DNA from: a virus
DNA length: 29,767 nt
Virus record (IMG/VR): IMGVR_UViG_3300031269_000064
Location: 1-29,767 of that record
Strand: one strand, 5' to 3'
The position numbers and the translations under genes are program-made. Positions 6,058-13,158 of the stretch are shown piece after piece; position 1 is the first letter of the stretch, and every line of letters begins with the position of its first letter. Under the pieces are notes generated by a model. The model had not been told where the DNA came from. It did not search any database and was given only the letters and a program-made list of their open reading frames with translations.

Positions 6058-7767
6058 CTACCCATCCATAACAGATGAATCTATAGCACGCCGTCTGCCC
6101 GCCGCCTTAGAGCGCTTACGTACTCTAGGCGATGCTGTGACGGTAGTGTCCTTGCTAGCTGGTCGTGCGTTATCTACTGCCCACGACTGCATATGCTGGA
6201 ATTGGTCTGCAAAGGCTTCTGACATAGGCTTGATATGGCCTAACTGCTCAGCAATAAGTGAGCCAGTTATCGCTGCCTTATCTTGTGTATACGCCTCTAG
6301 GATTGCCTCTTTAACGGCTGCTTCAATCTCAGCAGGTACGTAACCCTCGGAAGCATCTACGGCTGCATCAATATCATCCATGCCTTCCGTAGACTTACCT
6401 CTCTTACGTAAGTGAATATCAATAATATCCCTACGCTCCAAGGGGCTAGGTAGTGTTACCCCAAAAACCTCATCCAAGCGCCCTTTACGTAAAAACTCGC
6501 TAGGCATATTATCCGTTCGGTTAGCTGTAACCACTACGAACACAGGCGCGGTAGTTTCCTGCATCCACGTTAGTAGCGAGCCTAATACTCTAGTACCTAC
6601 GCCACTATCGTTACTGCCTCCAGTTTGAAAAGCCTTATCCGCCTCATCAATCAAAGCCACACAGGGAGCCATCGCATCAATCTCTTTTAAGGTTGTACGT
6701 ACTAAGCTTTCTGATTCACCTACTAAAGATTTAAATACGCGGCTGACATCAAACTTGATTAGAGGTATATTATTAAGCTCGGAGGCAATAGCCTTTGCTG
6801 CTAATGATTTACCTGTGCCTGATGGTCCTACTAATGCTATGCCTTTGGGCGTATCTACACCAAACTCCTGCGCATCCTCGGTAAAGCAATCCCTGCGCTT
6901 AGCAATCCACTCTTTTAAGTTCTCTAAGCCACCTACGTTAGTCATATCATCGGCTGGCATAAGCTCTAATACCTCAGACCGTTTGACAACCTCAGTTTTA
7001 GCTTTCAGTACGGCATCATTATAGTCTTCCGCGCAAAAATCTTCGTTAGTGCTATTGCTGACGGTAGCGCATGATATGGCAGTGCTAAACTCTTGTTGAG
7101 TCATTCCTGATGCAGAGGATATGATAGTATCAACATCTTCCGGAGCAAAACTAACTACACGCTCACGTATTACTTTGGCTTTTTCAGAATCCCTAGGCAG
7201 GGAGTAATAAAGCAGCTCCTCATACATGACTTTTAGTTCTTTATGCGAGGGAGGTTTAAAATCAAGAATACTAATATCGCCGCTTAACTCACTAGGTATA
7301 GTAACAGACTCAGGAGCAACGATGATTACTGTCTTATAGGTGGCAGATAGTCGTTGCGAATATTCCTTTAATAACTGCCCTACGTGCATATTATCAAACA
7401 TCTTAGGGTAGTATAATAGGGTATATACGCAGCTTTCAGGGAAGCGCTCGTTATCCGTGCTTGACTCTAGCATCTTAAGCTCTGGTCCTAGGTTTATATT
7501 ATCGTCAGCGGTAGCTGTAAAACACATATCCAGCATCACATCATCGCCTTGTCCGTCTGCAGGACTAAAGGCGCGCCATCCATTCACGCACTCCCAATAC
7601 TTAAACTCTTGGTTTTTCATGATAGCGCTTTCACGTATGGCTTCTACCGTACGATACGTCTCTTTAGTACGTACTACGATTACGCCAATAGCCGCCCTAT
7701 ATAAGGTAATAAGCTCCTGCACAAACTCGTCTTTGTGTGAAACTTCTTTATCAATTAACCCACTCAT
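6058..7767 (-). CDS. Ycf46-like AAA+ ATPase
   Basis: This 569-residue protein is a classical AAA+ ATPase with a non-catalytic N-terminal half. The AAA+ module has a GGLENLKEWIAKR lead-in typical of Ycf46, Walker A GPSGTGKS at about 313-320, Walker B VALIDEAD at about 370-377 and an SRH region around FLRKGRLDEVF near 430 with conserved arginines. The N-terminal region (residues 15-60, ELITLYRAAIGVIVVRTKETYRTVEA) resembles the degenerate N-domain of Ycf46/YjoB-like proteins. The C-terminal 45 residues are basic and disordered. In cyanobacteria and plastids Ycf46 homologues neighbour DUF1257 and DUF2997; both are encoded downstream here. The substrate is unknown; a remodelling role on a phage or host complex is inferred. 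It has its own promoter and terminator. Confidence 0.88.
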   Translation of the reverse strand: MSGLIDKEVSHKDEFVQELITLYRAAIGVIVVRTKETYRTVEAIRESAIMKNQEFKYWECVNGWRAFSPADGQGDDVMLDMCFTATADDNINLGPELKMLESSTDNERFPESCVYTLLYYPKMFDNMHVGQLLKEYSQRLSATYKTVIIVAPESVTIPSELSGDISILDFKPPSHKELKVMYEELLYYSLPRDSEKAKVIRERVVSFAPEDVDTIISSASGMTQQEFSTAISCATVSNSTNEDFCAEDYNDAVLKAKTEVVKRSEVLELMPADDMTNVGGLENLKEWIAKRRDCFTEDAQEFGVDTPKGIALVGPSGTGKSLAAKAIASELNNIPLIKFDVSRVFKSLVGESESLVRTTLKEIDAMAPCVALIDEADKAFQTGGSNDSGVGTRVLGSLLTWMQETTAPVFVVVTANRTDNMPSEFLRKGRLDEVFGVTLPSPLERRDIIDIHLRKRGKSTEGMDDIDAAVDASEGYVPAEIEAAVKEAILEAYTQDKAAITGSLIAEQLGHIKPMSEAFADQFQHMQSWAVDNARPASKDTTVTASPRVRKRSKAAGRRRAIDSSVMDG

Positions 7768-8363: not shown

Positions 8364-10223
8364 TTACCCATCTACTACTGAAATAGCGTTAGATATTTTA
8401 GTAGCTGAGCCTATGAGGTTCGCTGCTGTAACCAAGCACGTTATATCCGAGCCGTCATCGGCTATAACCTTAGAATAGGTATTCGCTGTCTCACTTACTA
8501 TCTCTAGGCCATCCCTGAACCATTGATAGGTAAATGAAGCCGCGCCTGACCACGTACCTGTGTCTGCTGTTAGAACTCCTGAAACATCGGTAGTTCCTGT
8601 AACTGCAGGGGCTATAGTATTAACAGGAGTAAATTGGAGCGCTGCTACGGCTAATCCCACAAACTCTGCTGCATCCTCATCATAATGTATGCCGTTAGGC
8701 GTGCTTTCTCGCCACGATAGGCTAGCATCCACTACGTTAGGGTCTATAAGTATAGTATTACTATCTGAAGCAACTATAGCGGCCTGCGCTGTAGTCACCA
8801 CGTCTTGATATTGGAACTCTGCATCGTTTCGTGAGTCAGGGTCTTCTACCTGAGTCTTAATCATATAAACTGGCATTGTAGGGTAGCTAAATAAAGTACG
8901 TGCATTAGTTATTAGGTCTGTCATTGCATCTTCATACTCGCCGCTACGTAGCTCAGTATCCGCATCATTAGTGCCTAAGTTAGTAGTGATTGCCTTGTAC
9001 CTAGGTACAACTCCTATAGAAGCCAAGTAAGCTTCAAATAAGGCTTTATTAGCTACTAAATCATCCCAGCTATTACTAGCGTCTCCCTCAGGTAGCCATT
9101 TAGTACTAGTAACGTCACCCGCCTTGGCTTGCTTCAGCACTAAGAATTCGTTATCGGTATCCGCTGCTCCTATACCCCATAGAGCGGTAAGCTCCGCACC
9201 GAAGCCCCACACGGTAGGATTATTGCTGATTGCTACTTGTGCGTTCTTAGGCGCTAAAGGCCTTAGCGTTGTCTCAGTATCCGTATCGCCTAATCTAGTA
9301 CCCCAGATATAACTTCTAGGTACTACTTTATTGGCATATGCTGCGTCTAGGTTAGCGATATTAACCGCACCGCCATTCATAATTGAGTCACCTATGAATA
9401 CATAAGTGTCTATCTCAGTGAGCAGGCCATAATATATACGAAGTAAGCGGGTTAAGTCTGCACGCTCTTCGGCTGTAAGTTTCCTATCAATAGCTAACCA
9501 ACCGCAGAAAATGCCCTTAGTGCTTACGCATAACCGTAAAGGGTCTGAGTGGTCATCTGTATCATACGTTATACCAGAGCCTACAAATAGACCATAGGCT
9601 TCCGCGCCATTAACCAGAATAGCTGATTCGTTTTCGGTAGAGGTAGCGGTATCTTGATTATAGCCTGATACAATACATTTTGTATCTAAAGGTAGCAGGC
9701 CATTACCTAGTTGCGTAGAGGAATCTAGGTTCATGAAGTTGCCATCACCCCTAGTAAACCAACGTATGTCCTCGTCAGGCTCAAACGCTAAGTAAGCGCC
9801 TGCATTTGAAGAGCCACTTATATTAGTATAGAAAGGGAAGCCGTTGCTGCTAGCAGTAGAGTCGGGCTTAGATATAAAGAACCACTCGCAGCCCGTACCG
9901 TCATGCAAGAAATTACGATCTCCCGCGACTCCTATCTGGTAGTTATTTTGCGAGCCTGAGCATAATGCCCCGCCCTCGCCTTCTGTCATATACGCACCAC
10001 TTTCATGAGTAAGTGGCTGACCACTAGAGCCTAGGTTGGCAATCTCTGTTATATTCGTAGTAGATAGCGTATAGTTTTGGGAGTTAGAGGCATCTACAAA
10101 ATCAAAAGGATTATAATCAGAAATTATCTGCTCTAAAACAGAGGCAGATAAAGCCGCCCTGCCTGCAAAGGAGCTGAGGGAAGTCAAAGACGTGTTAAGC
10201 CTAGAAAACATACTAAAAGACAT
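8364..10223 (-). CDS. Tail spike/fibre with SGNH-hydrolase (carbohydrate esterase) domain
   Basis: This 619-residue protein has three parts. Residues about 45-265 look like a concanavalin/LamG-type sugar-binding sandwich. Residues about 270-530 are an SGNH hydrolase: block I YVFIGDSIMNGG (catalytic Ser near 279), a TNLGTNDAD block III near 415-420 and a terminal NGIHY block near 508-512. Residues about 535-619 are an Ig-like beta domain (TYQWFRDG, SDITCLVTA). Such proteins deacetylate capsule or LPS sugars at the cell surface. The usual D-x-x-H is N-G-I-H here, so the catalytic aspartate is replaced by Asn; activity is either unusual or weakened. It follows the endolysin with a one-base TAATG overlap, so it is expressed late. 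A short hydrophobic Ser-rich N-terminus probably docks to the virion. Confidence 0.82.
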   Translation of the reverse strand: MSFSMFSRLNTSLTSLSSFAGRAALSASVLEQIISDYNPFDFVDASNSQNYTLSTTNITEIANLGSSGQPLTHESGAYMTEGEGGALCSGSQNNYQIGVAGDRNFLHDGTGCEWFFISKPDSTASSNGFPFYTNISGSSNAGAYLAFEPDEDIRWFTRGDGNFMNLDSSTQLGNGLLPLDTKCIVSGYNQDTATSTENESAILVNGAEAYGLFVGSGITYDTDDHSDPLRLCVSTKGIFCGWLAIDRKLTAEERADLTRLLRIYYGLLTEIDTYVFIGDSIMNGGAVNIANLDAAYANKVVPRSYIWGTRLGDTDTETTLRPLAPKNAQVAISNNPTVWGFGAELTALWGIGAADTDNEFLVLKQAKAGDVTSTKWLPEGDASNSWDDLVANKALFEAYLASIGVVPRYKAITTNLGTNDADTELRSGEYEDAMTDLITNARTLFSYPTMPVYMIKTQVEDPDSRNDAEFQYQDVVTTAQAAIVASDSNTILIDPNVVDASLSWRESTPNGIHYDEDAAEFVGLAVAALQFTPVNTIAPAVTGTTDVSGVLTADTGTWSGAASFTYQWFRDGLEIVSETANTYSKVIADDGSDITCLVTAANLIGSATKISNAISVVDG

Positions 10224-10873
10224 TATACCCCCAGATTACCTTTACTATCTAATTTTAGAGCCGCCCTATAATCAAACACAGGGCAACCTCGGTTAGATAC
10301 TTCATTATGACCGTGGAAAGTTACGCTACCACCATAAGCCTCATTTATTTGCTGGCATAGCGCCGTTAGCGTTTCCATCTGAGCAGAGGTAAAATCCTTA
10401 ACTACAAGCCCCTGAAGGCATATAGCGATAGTGCCTGTATTATGCCCTTTTTGCGCATCAGGATTTGACCAGAGCTTACGGCCTAGCTGTAACTCCCCAG
10501 CGAAAGTAATGAAGAAGTGATAGGCTACATCTAAAACACCATCATCCCTCTTATACCCTAAGTTTGTATGGTCGCGCTTTACAGACGCTAAATCGTATTT
10601 TGGATTGCTAGAAGCCGTGCAATGGATAAACACCCTAGAGACATCCCGAGTCGTAGGGGCTGCAAAAGTATAAGGCTGATTATTTACAATCAGCACCTTC
10701 TGTACAGAGGCAGTAGTGTGTTCGATTATGGGTTTTATTGATTCTTTTGTCTCCGTAAATATCGGAGGTGCAATTACCTTCTCCTGCTCTTGCTCCTGAG
10801 GGGCAGATGCTTTGCCAGTATTGAATAGTTGTCTCAGAAAAGCCAATAGGCTCGAAAATATCGCACGCATCAC
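10223..10873 (-). CDS. N-acetylmuramoyl-L-alanine amidase endolysin (T7-lysozyme type)
   Basis: The catalytic domain, residues about 76-210, belongs to the amidase_2 family. Zinc ligands are His84 (FIHCTAS), His189 (FHGHNEV) and Cys197 (NRGCPVFD), with Tyr118 at the position of the T7 lysozyme active-site Tyr. Arg195 stands where T7 has a catalytic Lys. It cuts the amide between N-acetylmuramic acid and L-Ala in peptidoglycan. Residues 4-17 are hydrophobic (AIFSSLLAFLRQLF), a possible membrane association or signal-anchor segment. They are followed by a low-complexity linker to residue 75. The linker lies just where the Rz1-like gene overlaps in another frame, which may explain its odd sequence. 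GTG at 10873 and ATG at 10870 are adjacent possible starts; the ATG overlaps the preceding stop (TGATG). Confidence 0.92.
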   Translation of the reverse strand: MMRAIFSSLLAFLRQLFNTGKASAPQEQEQEKVIAPPIFTETKESIKPIIEHTTASVQKVLIVNNQPYTFAAPTTRDVSRVFIHCTASSNPKYDLASVKRDHTNLGYKRDDGVLDVAYHFFITFAGELQLGRKLWSNPDAQKGHNTGTIAICLQGLVVKDFTSAQMETLTALCQQINEAYGGSVTFHGHNEVSNRGCPVFDYRAALKLDSKGNLGV

Positions 10874-11012
10874 TCACTACCTTTATGTTCTGGTTTTTTT
10901 CCATTAGGCTGCAACCAGTCGTCGCTAAGACTATCAGAATCAGATTTAATTTTATTAGCCTCTTTGACTCTTTTATTATGCTCTTCGAGGTTTCTAACAT
11001 TTGTCTCATCAC
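10680..11012 (-). CDS. Rz1-like outer-membrane spanin lipoprotein (overlapping frame)
   Basis: This 110-residue frame overlaps the 77-residue gene upstream (in +1) and the first 65 codons of the endolysin. A Lys-rich N-terminus and a hydrophobic core, LNLILIVLATTGC, end in Cys at about 34, giving a lipoprotein signal with a slightly atypical lipobox (Thr at -3). After it, SDACDIFEPIGFSE then Q...C fits the C-x-x-F/W-x-P-I-x-x-S pattern shared by many Rz1-like phage proteins. Further cysteines lie near the end. Outer-membrane spanins join an inner-membrane partner to fuse the membranes in the last step of lysis. The start is GTG at 11012 or ATG at 11009, preceded by AAGGCGGG. Embedding in neighbouring genes is typical of Rz1. 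Confidence 0.65.
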   Translation of the reverse strand: MMRQMLETSKSIIKESKRLIKLNLILIVLATTGCSLMEKNQNIKVVSDACDIFEPIGFSETTIQYWQSICPSGARAGEGNCTSDIYGDKRINKTHNRTHYCLCTEGADCK

Positions 11013-11103
11013 TACCCGCCTTTTTTAGCGTACGGATATTGAGGTAGTCAAAAATCTTAGTGACTACCTCAACTAATCCTTTTATCCAAAGTAACCAGCT
11101 CAT
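10870..11103 (-). CDS. Small lysis-cassette protein, candidate inner-membrane spanin partner
   Basis: This 77-residue protein begins MSWLLWIKGLVEVVTKIFDYL, a hydrophobic but amphipathic helix. A charged helical region follows (KAGSDETNVRNLEEHNKRVKEANK), then a polar tail (SDSLSDDWLQP). That resembles short Rz-like inner-membrane spanins, which have one N-terminal membrane helix and a periplasmic coiled coil. Its out-of-frame overlap with the Rz1-like lipoprotein supports this. The membrane helix is weak (Lys8, Glu12, Lys16, Asp19), so it may lie along the membrane. The start overlaps the holin-like gene stop (ATGA, 11100-11103) and its stop overlaps the endolysin start, so it is part of a tight lysis operon. 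Confidence 0.65.
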   Translation of the reverse strand: MSWLLWIKGLVEVVTKIFDYLNIRTLKKAGSDETNVRNLEEHNKRVKEANKIKSDSDSLSDDWLQPNGKKPEHKGSE

Positions 11104-11426
11104 TTGCTGTTCTTGGCGTTCTTGGCGTTACCCCAGTTATTAGCCCCTAAATCAATAAATAACTTACGTAGATTCCACCACGTACCGCCTTTAGTGCCTA
11201 CAGGCAGTACAGCGGCTAGCAAACCTAGGAAACCCATAAAGGCTAAAATAGGTACAGCATAGTTAGATATAAAAGGTAAGGATAATATGGTTGGTAACAG
11301 AGTAATGATGAAATCTATATTCCACGCCTCTGGCTCTGCGGCTACCTCATTTACGATTTCCTCCGCAAAAGCAAAGAAAGGCGTGAAAGCAAACATACAC
11401 AAAAGGGAAAGCCTTAAAACACTCAT
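11100..11426 (-). CDS. Holin-like membrane protein with signal sequence
   Basis: This 108-residue protein has a cleavable-looking signal sequence (LSLLCMFAFTPFFAFAEE, cut after AFA). It then has one or two hydrophobic helices (about 37-55 IDFIITLLPTILSLPFI; 60-76 PILAFMGFLGLLAAVLPV) and a polar C-terminus ending NNWGNAKNAKNSK. Small membrane proteins with an N-A-K-N tail next to spanin and endolysin genes occur in other phages, but the family name escapes me. Position directly ahead of the spanins and the endolysin makes it the best holin candidate in the window. The ribosome site is AGGAG, 7 bases from ATG. The 85 bases upstream (11427-11511) hold no clear promoter or gene. Confidence 0.65.
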   Translation of the reverse strand: MSVLRLSLLCMFAFTPFFAFAEEIVNEVAAEPEAWNIDFIITLLPTILSLPFISNYAVPILAFMGFLGLLAAVLPVGTKGGTWWNLRKLFIDLGANNWGNAKNAKNSK

Positions 11427-11511: not shown

Positions 11512-11874
11512 CTATGCCGCCAAAGGGAGTATAGCTCTAAGCATAGATGCCTCTATAGGTTTTGCTATAAATGAGTATATCTTACCTTTAGCATTAGGGG
11601 CATTAGCATACATGCTTTCAGTAGGGTGTATGCCAGACGTTAGTATGATGGGGGCGGTATTATTTATGGCTAGTATATCATCCAATAAATCGAAAGCGTT
11701 ACCTAGGTTATTACTTATATCTAGTAAGATTAGATTGGCTTCTCTAAAATCCTCAAGACACTCAACCCTAATTATAGCTACGTCTTGCTTAAGCCTAGCC
11801 ACGTTCTGCCTAAATAATAAAAAATCTGCCGTACAATCCTCTAGGTAAGCTACTTGTATCGCACTCTCACGCAC
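11512..11874 (-). CDS. Stand-alone response-regulator receiver domain (CheY-like)
   Basis: This 120-residue protein has the full receiver signature. The acidic pair is Glu12-Asp13 at the end of the first strand (VAYLEDC). Asp52 is the phospho-acceptor site, in ANLILLDIS. Thr79/Ser80 follow the fourth strand (PIILTSG). Lys105-Pro106 form the conserved K-P pair in IYSFIAKPI. There is no output domain, so it would act by protein contact, as CheY or Spo0F do. It starts with GTG, two bases after the stop of the PAS gene, with AGGGG inside that gene's end as ribosome site, so the two are co-translated. No histidine kinase is seen in the window; phosphate would have to come from a host kinase or small donor. 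A receiver in a phage lysis cassette is unusual. Confidence 0.85.
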   Translation of the reverse strand: MRESAIQVAYLEDCTADFLLFRQNVARLKQDVAIIRVECLEDFREANLILLDISNNLGNAFDLLDDILAINNTAPIILTSGIHPTESMYANAPNAKGKIYSFIAKPIEASMLRAILPLAA

Positions 11875-11876
11875 CC

Positions 11877-12389
11877 TTAAACCCCTAACGCTTTTATAAC
11901 GCCTGCTATAGTAGCCGCTATAACCGTACCTATGACGGCTATGGCCTTGCTCTTAGACGTTACGAAATCCGTTAATGATTGAGGCTCTGGGTTGAGGGTA
12001 TGCGACACTTGTTTTTCCGTATCCAGCATTATTTTTGATACAAAGAATAGGAACTCCTTTTCCGCGCTGTAAGCTCCCCTCACTAGAAGAACAACACTCA
12101 CTGTGCTTCCACTGCTGAACTCGTATGTCTTGTTCAAAAGGTATGACTCTATTATCCCAGCCATCACAAGTTTTGCGTTGTTCTCGTCTATCTCCTTTAT
12201 CGGAGGTGGTGTTATGTCCTGAAACCTCTTGCCGATTAGCTCCGCTGGAGACGCACCAACGATTGCGCAGAATTGAGGATTTACAGAGTGGAACGTGAAG
12301 TCTTTGTTTATAATAGCCGTACCCTCGAAAGAAGGATGCCAAGAAACTTCCCAAGCGATTGCGCGCTGTTCCTCTGTTAAACGATCCAC
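11877..12389 (-). CDS. PAS-domain protein with C-terminal transmembrane helix
   Basis: This 170-residue protein starts with GTG after GAGGAG (5-base spacing). Residues about 18-125 are a PAS domain: GTAIINKDFTFHSVNPQFCAIVG, then SPAELIGKRFQDITPP, the usual N-x-x-F-x-x-x-x-G and L-x-G-x-x-x-x-x-x-P signatures of sensory PAS folds, and closing strands VVLLVRG and FLFFVSKI. Residues about 148-170 form one hydrophobic helix at the very C-terminus (IAVIGTVIAATIAGVI), which would tail-anchor it in the inner membrane with the PAS domain in the cytoplasm. No kinase or cyclase domain is attached. It lies directly upstream of the receiver gene, giving a sensor-like/receiver pair next to the holin. Ligand and output are unknown. 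Confidence 0.82.
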   Translation of the reverse strand: MDRLTEEQRAIAWEVSWHPSFEGTAIINKDFTFHSVNPQFCAIVGASPAELIGKRFQDITPPPIKEIDENNAKLVMAGIIESYLLNKTYEFSSGSTVSVVLLVRGAYSAEKEFLFFVSKIMLDTEKQVSHTLNPEPQSLTDFVTSKSKAIAVIGTVIAATIAGVIKALGV

Positions 12390-12438: not shown

Positions 12439-13158
12439 TTATAGGAGCAGAGTACCTAATACCATTATACCTAAGGTTGTGCCGTCAATCAACCCCCTAA
12501 GACCGCCAAAAACATACTCCGCCCTCATTGTAGCATCGTATATCTCTAACTCCCCAGCCATAATCCTCTTATACTGGATGTCGTGGTATTTACGGTATAT
12601 GAGGCCTCCTAAGTAATTACTAGGCCAAGCTAAGACTAGGAATAAGGGTAGGTACTGCCACACACCTCCTAGTATTAGGCCGAAGAACACAGATAAAAAC
12701 ATATACCGAGGTAACGACCATATAACGAAGTAAATGCCCATAGCGCACTGCTTCCAATCAACCTCCCTATCCGTGCCATGAATAGTCGAAGTGTATTTGT
12801 AACCCATAATAAGATTAGCAATCTCCTTAACCCCGAAACTAAAATCTTCTTTTGATGTATCTTTTAGTTTGTGAGGGAAGCACTCCCCGCGAGAAGGTGC
12901 GTCACGTAAAATACTAAAACCAAAATTACCTACAAACAAAATAGGTAAAACCCACCACAGGCTATAAGGACTAAAATAAATTGTAGCGGGTACAACTAAT
13001 AAGAAGAAAGCGGTAGACATGATTAGGTAGGTTATAATCTTAGGCATACCTAACCAGCGGCTTTTCGTGTCAGTACCTCGCTGCCTATTAAAGATAGCCT
13101 CCAAGGCGGCATAAACTAAAACCCCTGCAGAACCGAAACCTACTATAATTTTTCTCAT
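12439..13158 (-). CDS. Polytopic inner-membrane protein (hypothetical)
   Basis: This 239-residue protein has about five hydrophobic segments: residues 4-22, 41-63, 66-86, 142-183 (long, probably two helices) and 218-239. A hydrophilic loop of about 55 residues lies between (SRGECFPHKLKDTSKEDF). It is not a standard holin by size or topology and I do not recognise the family. It heads the lysis cassette and overlaps the preceding out-of-frame fibre tail by four bases (ATGA), so its translation is probably coupled to whatever reads that frame. It could be a holin/antiholin, a superinfection-exclusion protein or a membrane partner of the tail-anchored PAS protein. The sequence does not decide between these. 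Confidence 0.7.
   Translation of the reverse strand: MRKIIVGFGSAGVLVYAALEAIFNRQRGTDTKSRWLGMPKIITYLIMSTAFFLLVVPATIYFSPYSLWWVLPILFVGNFGFSILRDAPSRGECFPHKLKDTSKEDFSFGVKEIANLIMGYKYTSTIHGTDREVDWKQCAMGIYFVIWSLPRYMFLSVFFGLILGGVWQYLPLFLVLAWPSNYLGGLIYRKYHDIQYKRIMAGELEIYDATMRAEYVFGGLRGLIDGTTLGIMVLGTLLL

Follow-up and report, generated by a model that had tools for sequence, protein, structure and literature searches.

Gene content and order of the locus

Two short genes, encoding a PAS protein and a stand-alone CheY-like receiver, lie next to each other ahead of the lysis genes of a tailed phage, which is represented by a fragment of 29,767 bases in an IMG/VR virus record (the whole fragment is hereafter called the window). 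On the minus strand, the genes follow in the order 738-aa tail-region protein, 239-aa membrane protein, PAS protein, receiver, 108-aa holin-like protein, 77-aa protein, spanin-like lipoprotein and amidase. The PAS gene (11877–12389, minus strand, 170 aa) and the receiver gene (11512–11874, minus strand, 120 aa) are real open reading frames with two bases between them, in agreement with the original prediction. Both start with GTG, are preceded by plausible ribosome sites (GAGGAGATACC-GTG and AGGGGTTTAAGG-GTG) and display a codon use typical of phages.

The location of the pair ahead of holin-like, spanin-like and amidase genes, which had also been proposed, was borne out, with the refinement that the next gene starts 85 bp past the receiver gene. 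This gene (11100–11426, minus strand) encodes a 108-aa membrane protein, considered holin-like from its signal-like N-terminus and hydrophobic helices (sequence and hydropathy), and has no family match in Pfam or PHROG. The following 77-aa protein (10870–11103, minus strand) is a possible i-spanin, as judged from its reading frame and position. The 110-aa o-spanin-like lipoprotein (10680–11012, minus strand) carries a LATTGC lipobox and matches the Rz-like spanin family PHROG 1275 (3.9e-4); its reading frame overlaps with those of the 77-aa protein and the amidase. The 216-aa N-acetylmuramoyl-L-alanine amidase, the endolysin (10223–10873, minus strand), is supported by Pfam Amidase_2 (8.6e-12) and PHROG 822 (6.7e-27). 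Directly upstream of the PAS gene, an orphan 239-aa membrane protein with about four hydrophobic helices by hydropathy (12439–13158, minus strand) has no match in Pfam or PHROG. This multi-helix protein heads the lysis block and could belong to the same module.

Between the amidase and an AAA-ATPase gene, positions 8364–10223 encode a GDSL/SGNH-esterase protein with a C-terminal Ig-like stretch, which matches virion decoration proteins. The AAA-ATPase (6058–7767) has matches in the Rhizobium phages L338C and RHph_I4, Aeromonas phage HJ05, Rhodobacter phage RcTiptonus and Agrobacterium phage JP1, and the genes for tail, lysis, ATPase and replication are arranged in the same general order in the window and in these phages. 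The genomes of the nearest relatives are mostly 80–110 kb long. By comparison with them, the complete genome is probably near 100 kb and about two-thirds of it are probably missing from the fragment. Promoter and terminator scans returned no signal clearly exceeding chance, and a PADLOC search of the window proteins for defence systems returned no match.

Domain structure of the PAS protein and the receiver

The PAS domain spans approximately residues 20–123 of the 170-aa protein. It is matched by Pfam PAS_4 (3.6e-7) and PAS_9 (1.6e-6), both over their gathering cut-offs, and by TIGR00229 (7.6e-8), while the AlphaFold2 model displays a PAS fold for which the Foldseek matches are PAS structures. 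A single C-terminal hydrophobic helix at residues 150–168 (11886–11942, minus strand; Kyte-Doolittle 2.2) would serve as membrane anchor. The model places a helix at residues 139–168 with low confidence, which is usual for an isolated membrane helix. The PAS domain and C-terminal membrane helix described in the original prediction were both recovered by these analyses.

In FixL, a conserved histidine of the F-helix region ligates haem. No histidine is present at residues 60–110 of the window PAS protein, which therefore has no FixL-type proximal haem ligand, and the earlier idea that it senses energy or redox state found no direct support. A LOV or haem-PAS identity was considered and likewise gained no support. 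Matches on plasmids belong to cyclases and S-box proteins with ordinary PAS domains; because they are spread over many taxa, they do not reveal the host or the origin of the PAS gene.

The receiver is divergent. Its match to Pfam PF00072 (E 0.011, 16.3 bits) is under the cut-off of 30.2 bits, and helices alpha2 and alpha4 are short in the model. The AlphaFold model, computed with the window receiver and 16 other receivers as input, nevertheless displays the canonical (beta-alpha)5 fold (pLDDT 88.9, pTM 0.84), and the Foldseek top list consists throughout of response regulators and other receiver proteins. Over residues 8–116 it is 31% identical to the C-terminal receiver of a cyanobacterial protein, and the alignment keeps the acidic pair, the phospho-acceptor and the lysine in register. 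Taken together, the model, the Foldseek matches and this alignment identify the predicted product of 11512–11874 as a receiver of 120 aa that lacks an output domain, and structure prediction thus upheld the proposed fold.

Of the five catalytic residues originally assigned, Glu12, Asp13, Asp52 and Lys105 were confirmed and Thr79 is in doubt. D13, D52 and K105 are invariant in the 17-receiver alignment, so that Asp52 is conserved in every receiver aligned, a set that contains no diverged orthologues of the pair. A BLASTP alignment with L153 pairs T79 with a threonine, whereas a phmmer alignment with T. maritima CheY pairs S80 with a serine. As the two alignments disagree, the switch hydroxyl may be that of Ser80 instead of Thr79.

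The scan of genome contigs that yielded the cyanobacterial receiver also gave two Bacteroidales matches, which were spurious, the protein being a different one with one short peptide in common. An assignment to the cREC domains of jumbo-phage NAD+ conflict systems (PMC7824862) was rejected since the window receiver retains the classical catalytic residues; in addition, no NAD-processing enzyme was found among the proteins scanned.

Sensor and receiver genes near lysis genes in other phages

A tblastn search with the PAS protein, the receiver and the upstream 239-aa membrane protein found no match among the 50,697 phage records of INPHARED. When IMG/VR was scanned with these three proteins and a 583-aa protein, the sole match was contig 3300031216_000070, with 100% identity to the window across 21,322 bp. 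It is therefore the same genotype, provides no evolutionary information and allows no dN/dS estimate. In these collections, the pair itself was found outside the window only in this identical contig. Sensor or receiver genes were found beside lysis genes in other phages, as described below.

An IMG/VR scan with a PAS core motif returned 54 stretches. In most of them, a gene for a membrane PAS histidine kinase (about 410 aa) is directly followed by one for a stand-alone receiver (about 145 aa). A further scan with a conserved receiver motif, pooled and deduplicated, yielded at least 116 distinct loci. Among the matches listed, 109 of the 116 loci encode the kinase and 103 a coiled-coil protein bearing two hydrophobic helices; all three genes are contiguous in 83, and in 46 the kinase and receiver genes share 4 bases. 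Near-invariant features are the H-box of the kinase, the aspartate and lysine of the receiver, and the third protein's membrane segment. Such trios (for example L018:3601-5800 and L025:1556-3786, with at least 114 other viral loci) are widespread and strongly conserved in uncultured viruses.

Proximity to lysis genes was assessed with nine lysis-gene seeds. An endolysin or holin family gene lies within 4 kb of at least 53 of the 116 trio loci among the matches listed; in the other 63 of those listed no lysis gene was recognised within this distance, the contigs often being short and the seed set small. The density of lysis genes is about 1 per 10 kb inside 4 kb and zero past 6 kb. This fall-off is partly built in, because the seeds came from trio neighbourhoods, but the co-occurrence is not. 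No INPHARED record matched the trio receiver, and it was not found in 395 sampled Bacteroidota genomes in a search that had no positive control and so shows little.

The trio resembles the window pair in that a membrane PAS protein is directly followed by a stand-alone receiver and then by a membrane protein, often amid lysis genes. It differs by its full kinase, its FHLVFEDACSLL-motif receiver family and its coiled-coil third protein: the window PAS protein has no fused kinase domain, and the window receiver is 14–19% identical to trio receivers and devoid of the FHLVFEDACSLL motif. With no kinase, another receiver family and another third gene, the window pair is, on sequence comparison, outside the trio family and best described as a kinase-less analogue.

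Closer to the window, among 50 contigs sharing the AAA-ATPase, PAS_9 was found in one other contig and receivers in two, elsewhere. The PAS_9 carrier (L073, IMGVR_UViG_3300022555_000027) encodes a 284-aa PAS protein (L073:6608-7462) with an N-terminal membrane helix and no kinase. The gene has a tail fibre on one side and heads the lysis block on the other, a run comprising a dNMP-kinase-like protein, a 93-aa protein, an endolysin and small membrane and lipoprotein genes. Thus, in two related phages, a membrane-anchored and kinase-less PAS protein is located at the lysis block. The L073 protein differs from that of the window by its N-terminal anchor, by the lack of an adjoining receiver and by its similarity to FixL (NCBIfam 1e-15, PDB FixL 7e-13), the haem histidine being retained in the alignment. 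From its sequence, this FixL-like protein is a possible oxygen sensor within a lysis cassette. The phage that carries it, G006, also encodes a histidine kinase adjoining an HTH-receiver gene about 60 kb from the PAS gene; this kinase and regulator are located at L148:1462-3308, or about 82–84 kb in G006. In a more distant relative, G029, a 490-aa receiver-kinase-receiver hybrid (L268:7663-9443) is encoded directly past tail-like genes and a 107-aa gene, with a lipoprotein gene next; the 107-aa product, which has no family match, is called holin-like from its size and hydrophobicity.

Foldseek searches against viral structures pointed to a cultured phage, Alteromonas phage V22. In the paper on this phage (vB_AmeM_PT11-V22), the CheY-like CDS-30 is listed as a signalling auxiliary gene, and lysis is not mentioned for it in the available portion of the text (PMC7289586). 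Its product gp30 (MN877442) is a 149-aa stand-alone receiver (PF00072, 3.5e-22). Upstream of gp30 are a papain-like amidase, gp28, and a small protein, while the gp30 gene overlaps by 32 bases that of an Rz-like spanin, gp31 (L270:5750-6578), beyond which are a two-helix membrane protein, gp32, and, further on, a DUF5675 gene. Like the window receiver, gp30 is thus a stand-alone CheY-like protein encoded inside a lysis gene block. In contrast with it, gp30 has no adjoining PAS gene and a strong Pfam match, and the two receivers are not specifically related.

Staphylococcus LytSR consists of an integral-membrane kinase and a regulator with a LytTR DNA-binding domain. Through this two-component system, bacteria regulate holin-like genes in response to membrane potential (PMC5717393). 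LytSR with CidAB/LrgAB is similar to the window pair in placing holin-like genes under two-component control by a membrane-state signal, but it is cellular and not phage-encoded, and the window receiver has no LytTR output. In vibriophage VP882, the PAS protein VqmA governs the decision to lyse (PMC8284805). However, VqmA is a fusion of PAS and DNA-binding domains that activates the antirepressor gene qtip, and not a membrane PAS protein within a lysis cassette. Clostridioides phage phiCDHM1 encodes AgrC without a response regulator, with the agr genes adjoining the endolysin gene (PMC3901668). This is also a partial two-component system near a lysis gene, but one with a kinase and no receiver, among peptide quorum-sensing genes. 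In Yersinia entomophaga, a PhoB-like regulator controls a phage-like lysis cassette (PMC10101115). A search of the open-access literature returned no account in which sensor or receiver genes form part of phage lysis cassettes; within that literature, the linkage to lysis appears to be undescribed.

Proposed lysis control and possible alternative roles of the pair

Our preferred reading, which we hold tentatively and at somewhat less than an even chance, is that the pair serves to tune lysis and that host kinases or acetyl phosphate charge the receiver. The module would consist of a sensor and a switch, kinase-less as far as the genome is sequenced, within the late or lysis operon. The PAS domain would be located at the inner membrane, on its cytoplasmic side and next to the holin, and the receiver would take its phosphoryl group from host histidine kinases or acetyl phosphate. 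Depending on whether it is phosphorylated, the receiver could then differ in how it binds the PAS protein or a membrane protein of the lysis machinery, and the physiological state of the host would thereby advance or delay lysis. Such a mode of action would resemble that of the trio, with no membership in it. Sensor or receiver genes have appeared independently among the lysis genes of several phage groups, which makes the idea of lysis control likelier than it would be from the window alone, and suggests that some phages wire host signalling into when to lyse. A broader version is possible but rather doubtful: several unrelated lineages would have independently wired receivers and membrane PAS proteins into lysis cassettes, so that the triggering of holins or spanins reads host oxygen, redox, energy or phosphorelay state, and the window pair would be a minimal form that borrows host kinases.

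Lysis timing has mostly been described as an intrinsic holin clock. If lysis tuning is correct, a sensor and a phospho-switch would make this timing regulated and responsive to physiology, and phage receivers currently annotated as generic auxiliary genes would acquire a testable role. V22, being cultured, offers a system in which a role in lysis can be tested directly.

Several points count against lysis tuning. No homologous pair was found outside the one identical contig, the window receiver is not specifically related to the trio receivers, and 63 of the 116 trio loci listed have no recognised lysis gene within 4 kb. Junctions between tail and lysis genes are, moreover, common cargo sites, where position alone need not imply lysis control. 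The pair could accordingly be host-modulating cargo that acts on host signalling or metabolism and sits between tail and lysis genes by chance, with no role in lysis timing. We regard this as possible, although on the unlikely side. The tail-to-lysis interval is highly variable among relatives, and the few PAS_9 and receiver genes among the 50 ATPase-related contigs mark them as accessory. Against this, sensor or receiver genes are co-directional with the lysis genes, some overlapping or touching them, in several unrelated lineages, and random cargo would be expected to occupy other hot-spots as well.

The original prediction had also raised the drainage of phosphate from a host pathway. As a sink or decoy, an abundant late receiver would drain a host kinase and silence an envelope-stress or cell-cycle phosphorelay, while the PAS protein would localise the receiver or block a host PAS kinase by heterodimerising with it. 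A stand-alone receiver that retains its catalytic residues, with no output domain and no phage kinase in the fragment, is compatible with such a role. We consider it improbable: no specific host kinase is linked to the receiver, and the kinase that accompanies the receiver in nearly all listed trio loci favours signalling over draining in analogous systems.

No HATPase_c domain was detected within the 29.8-kb fragment. The earlier statement that no kinase is present therefore holds only for this fragment of an incompletely sequenced genome, and the true partner kinase of a split sensor could be encoded in the unsequenced part. G006, with a PAS gene in its lysis cassette and a distant histidine kinase/HTH-receiver pair, provides a precedent, but HATPase_c was unmatched in 15 of 17 related records (the window and its identical twin not counted), and we view such a split as quite improbable. 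That the pair is the decaying remnant of a PAS-kinase/receiver operon, as the absent kinase domains and the receiver score under the Pfam cut-off might indicate, is very improbable: neither reading frame is disrupted, each has a ribosome site and phage-like codon use, and no catalytic residue has been lost.
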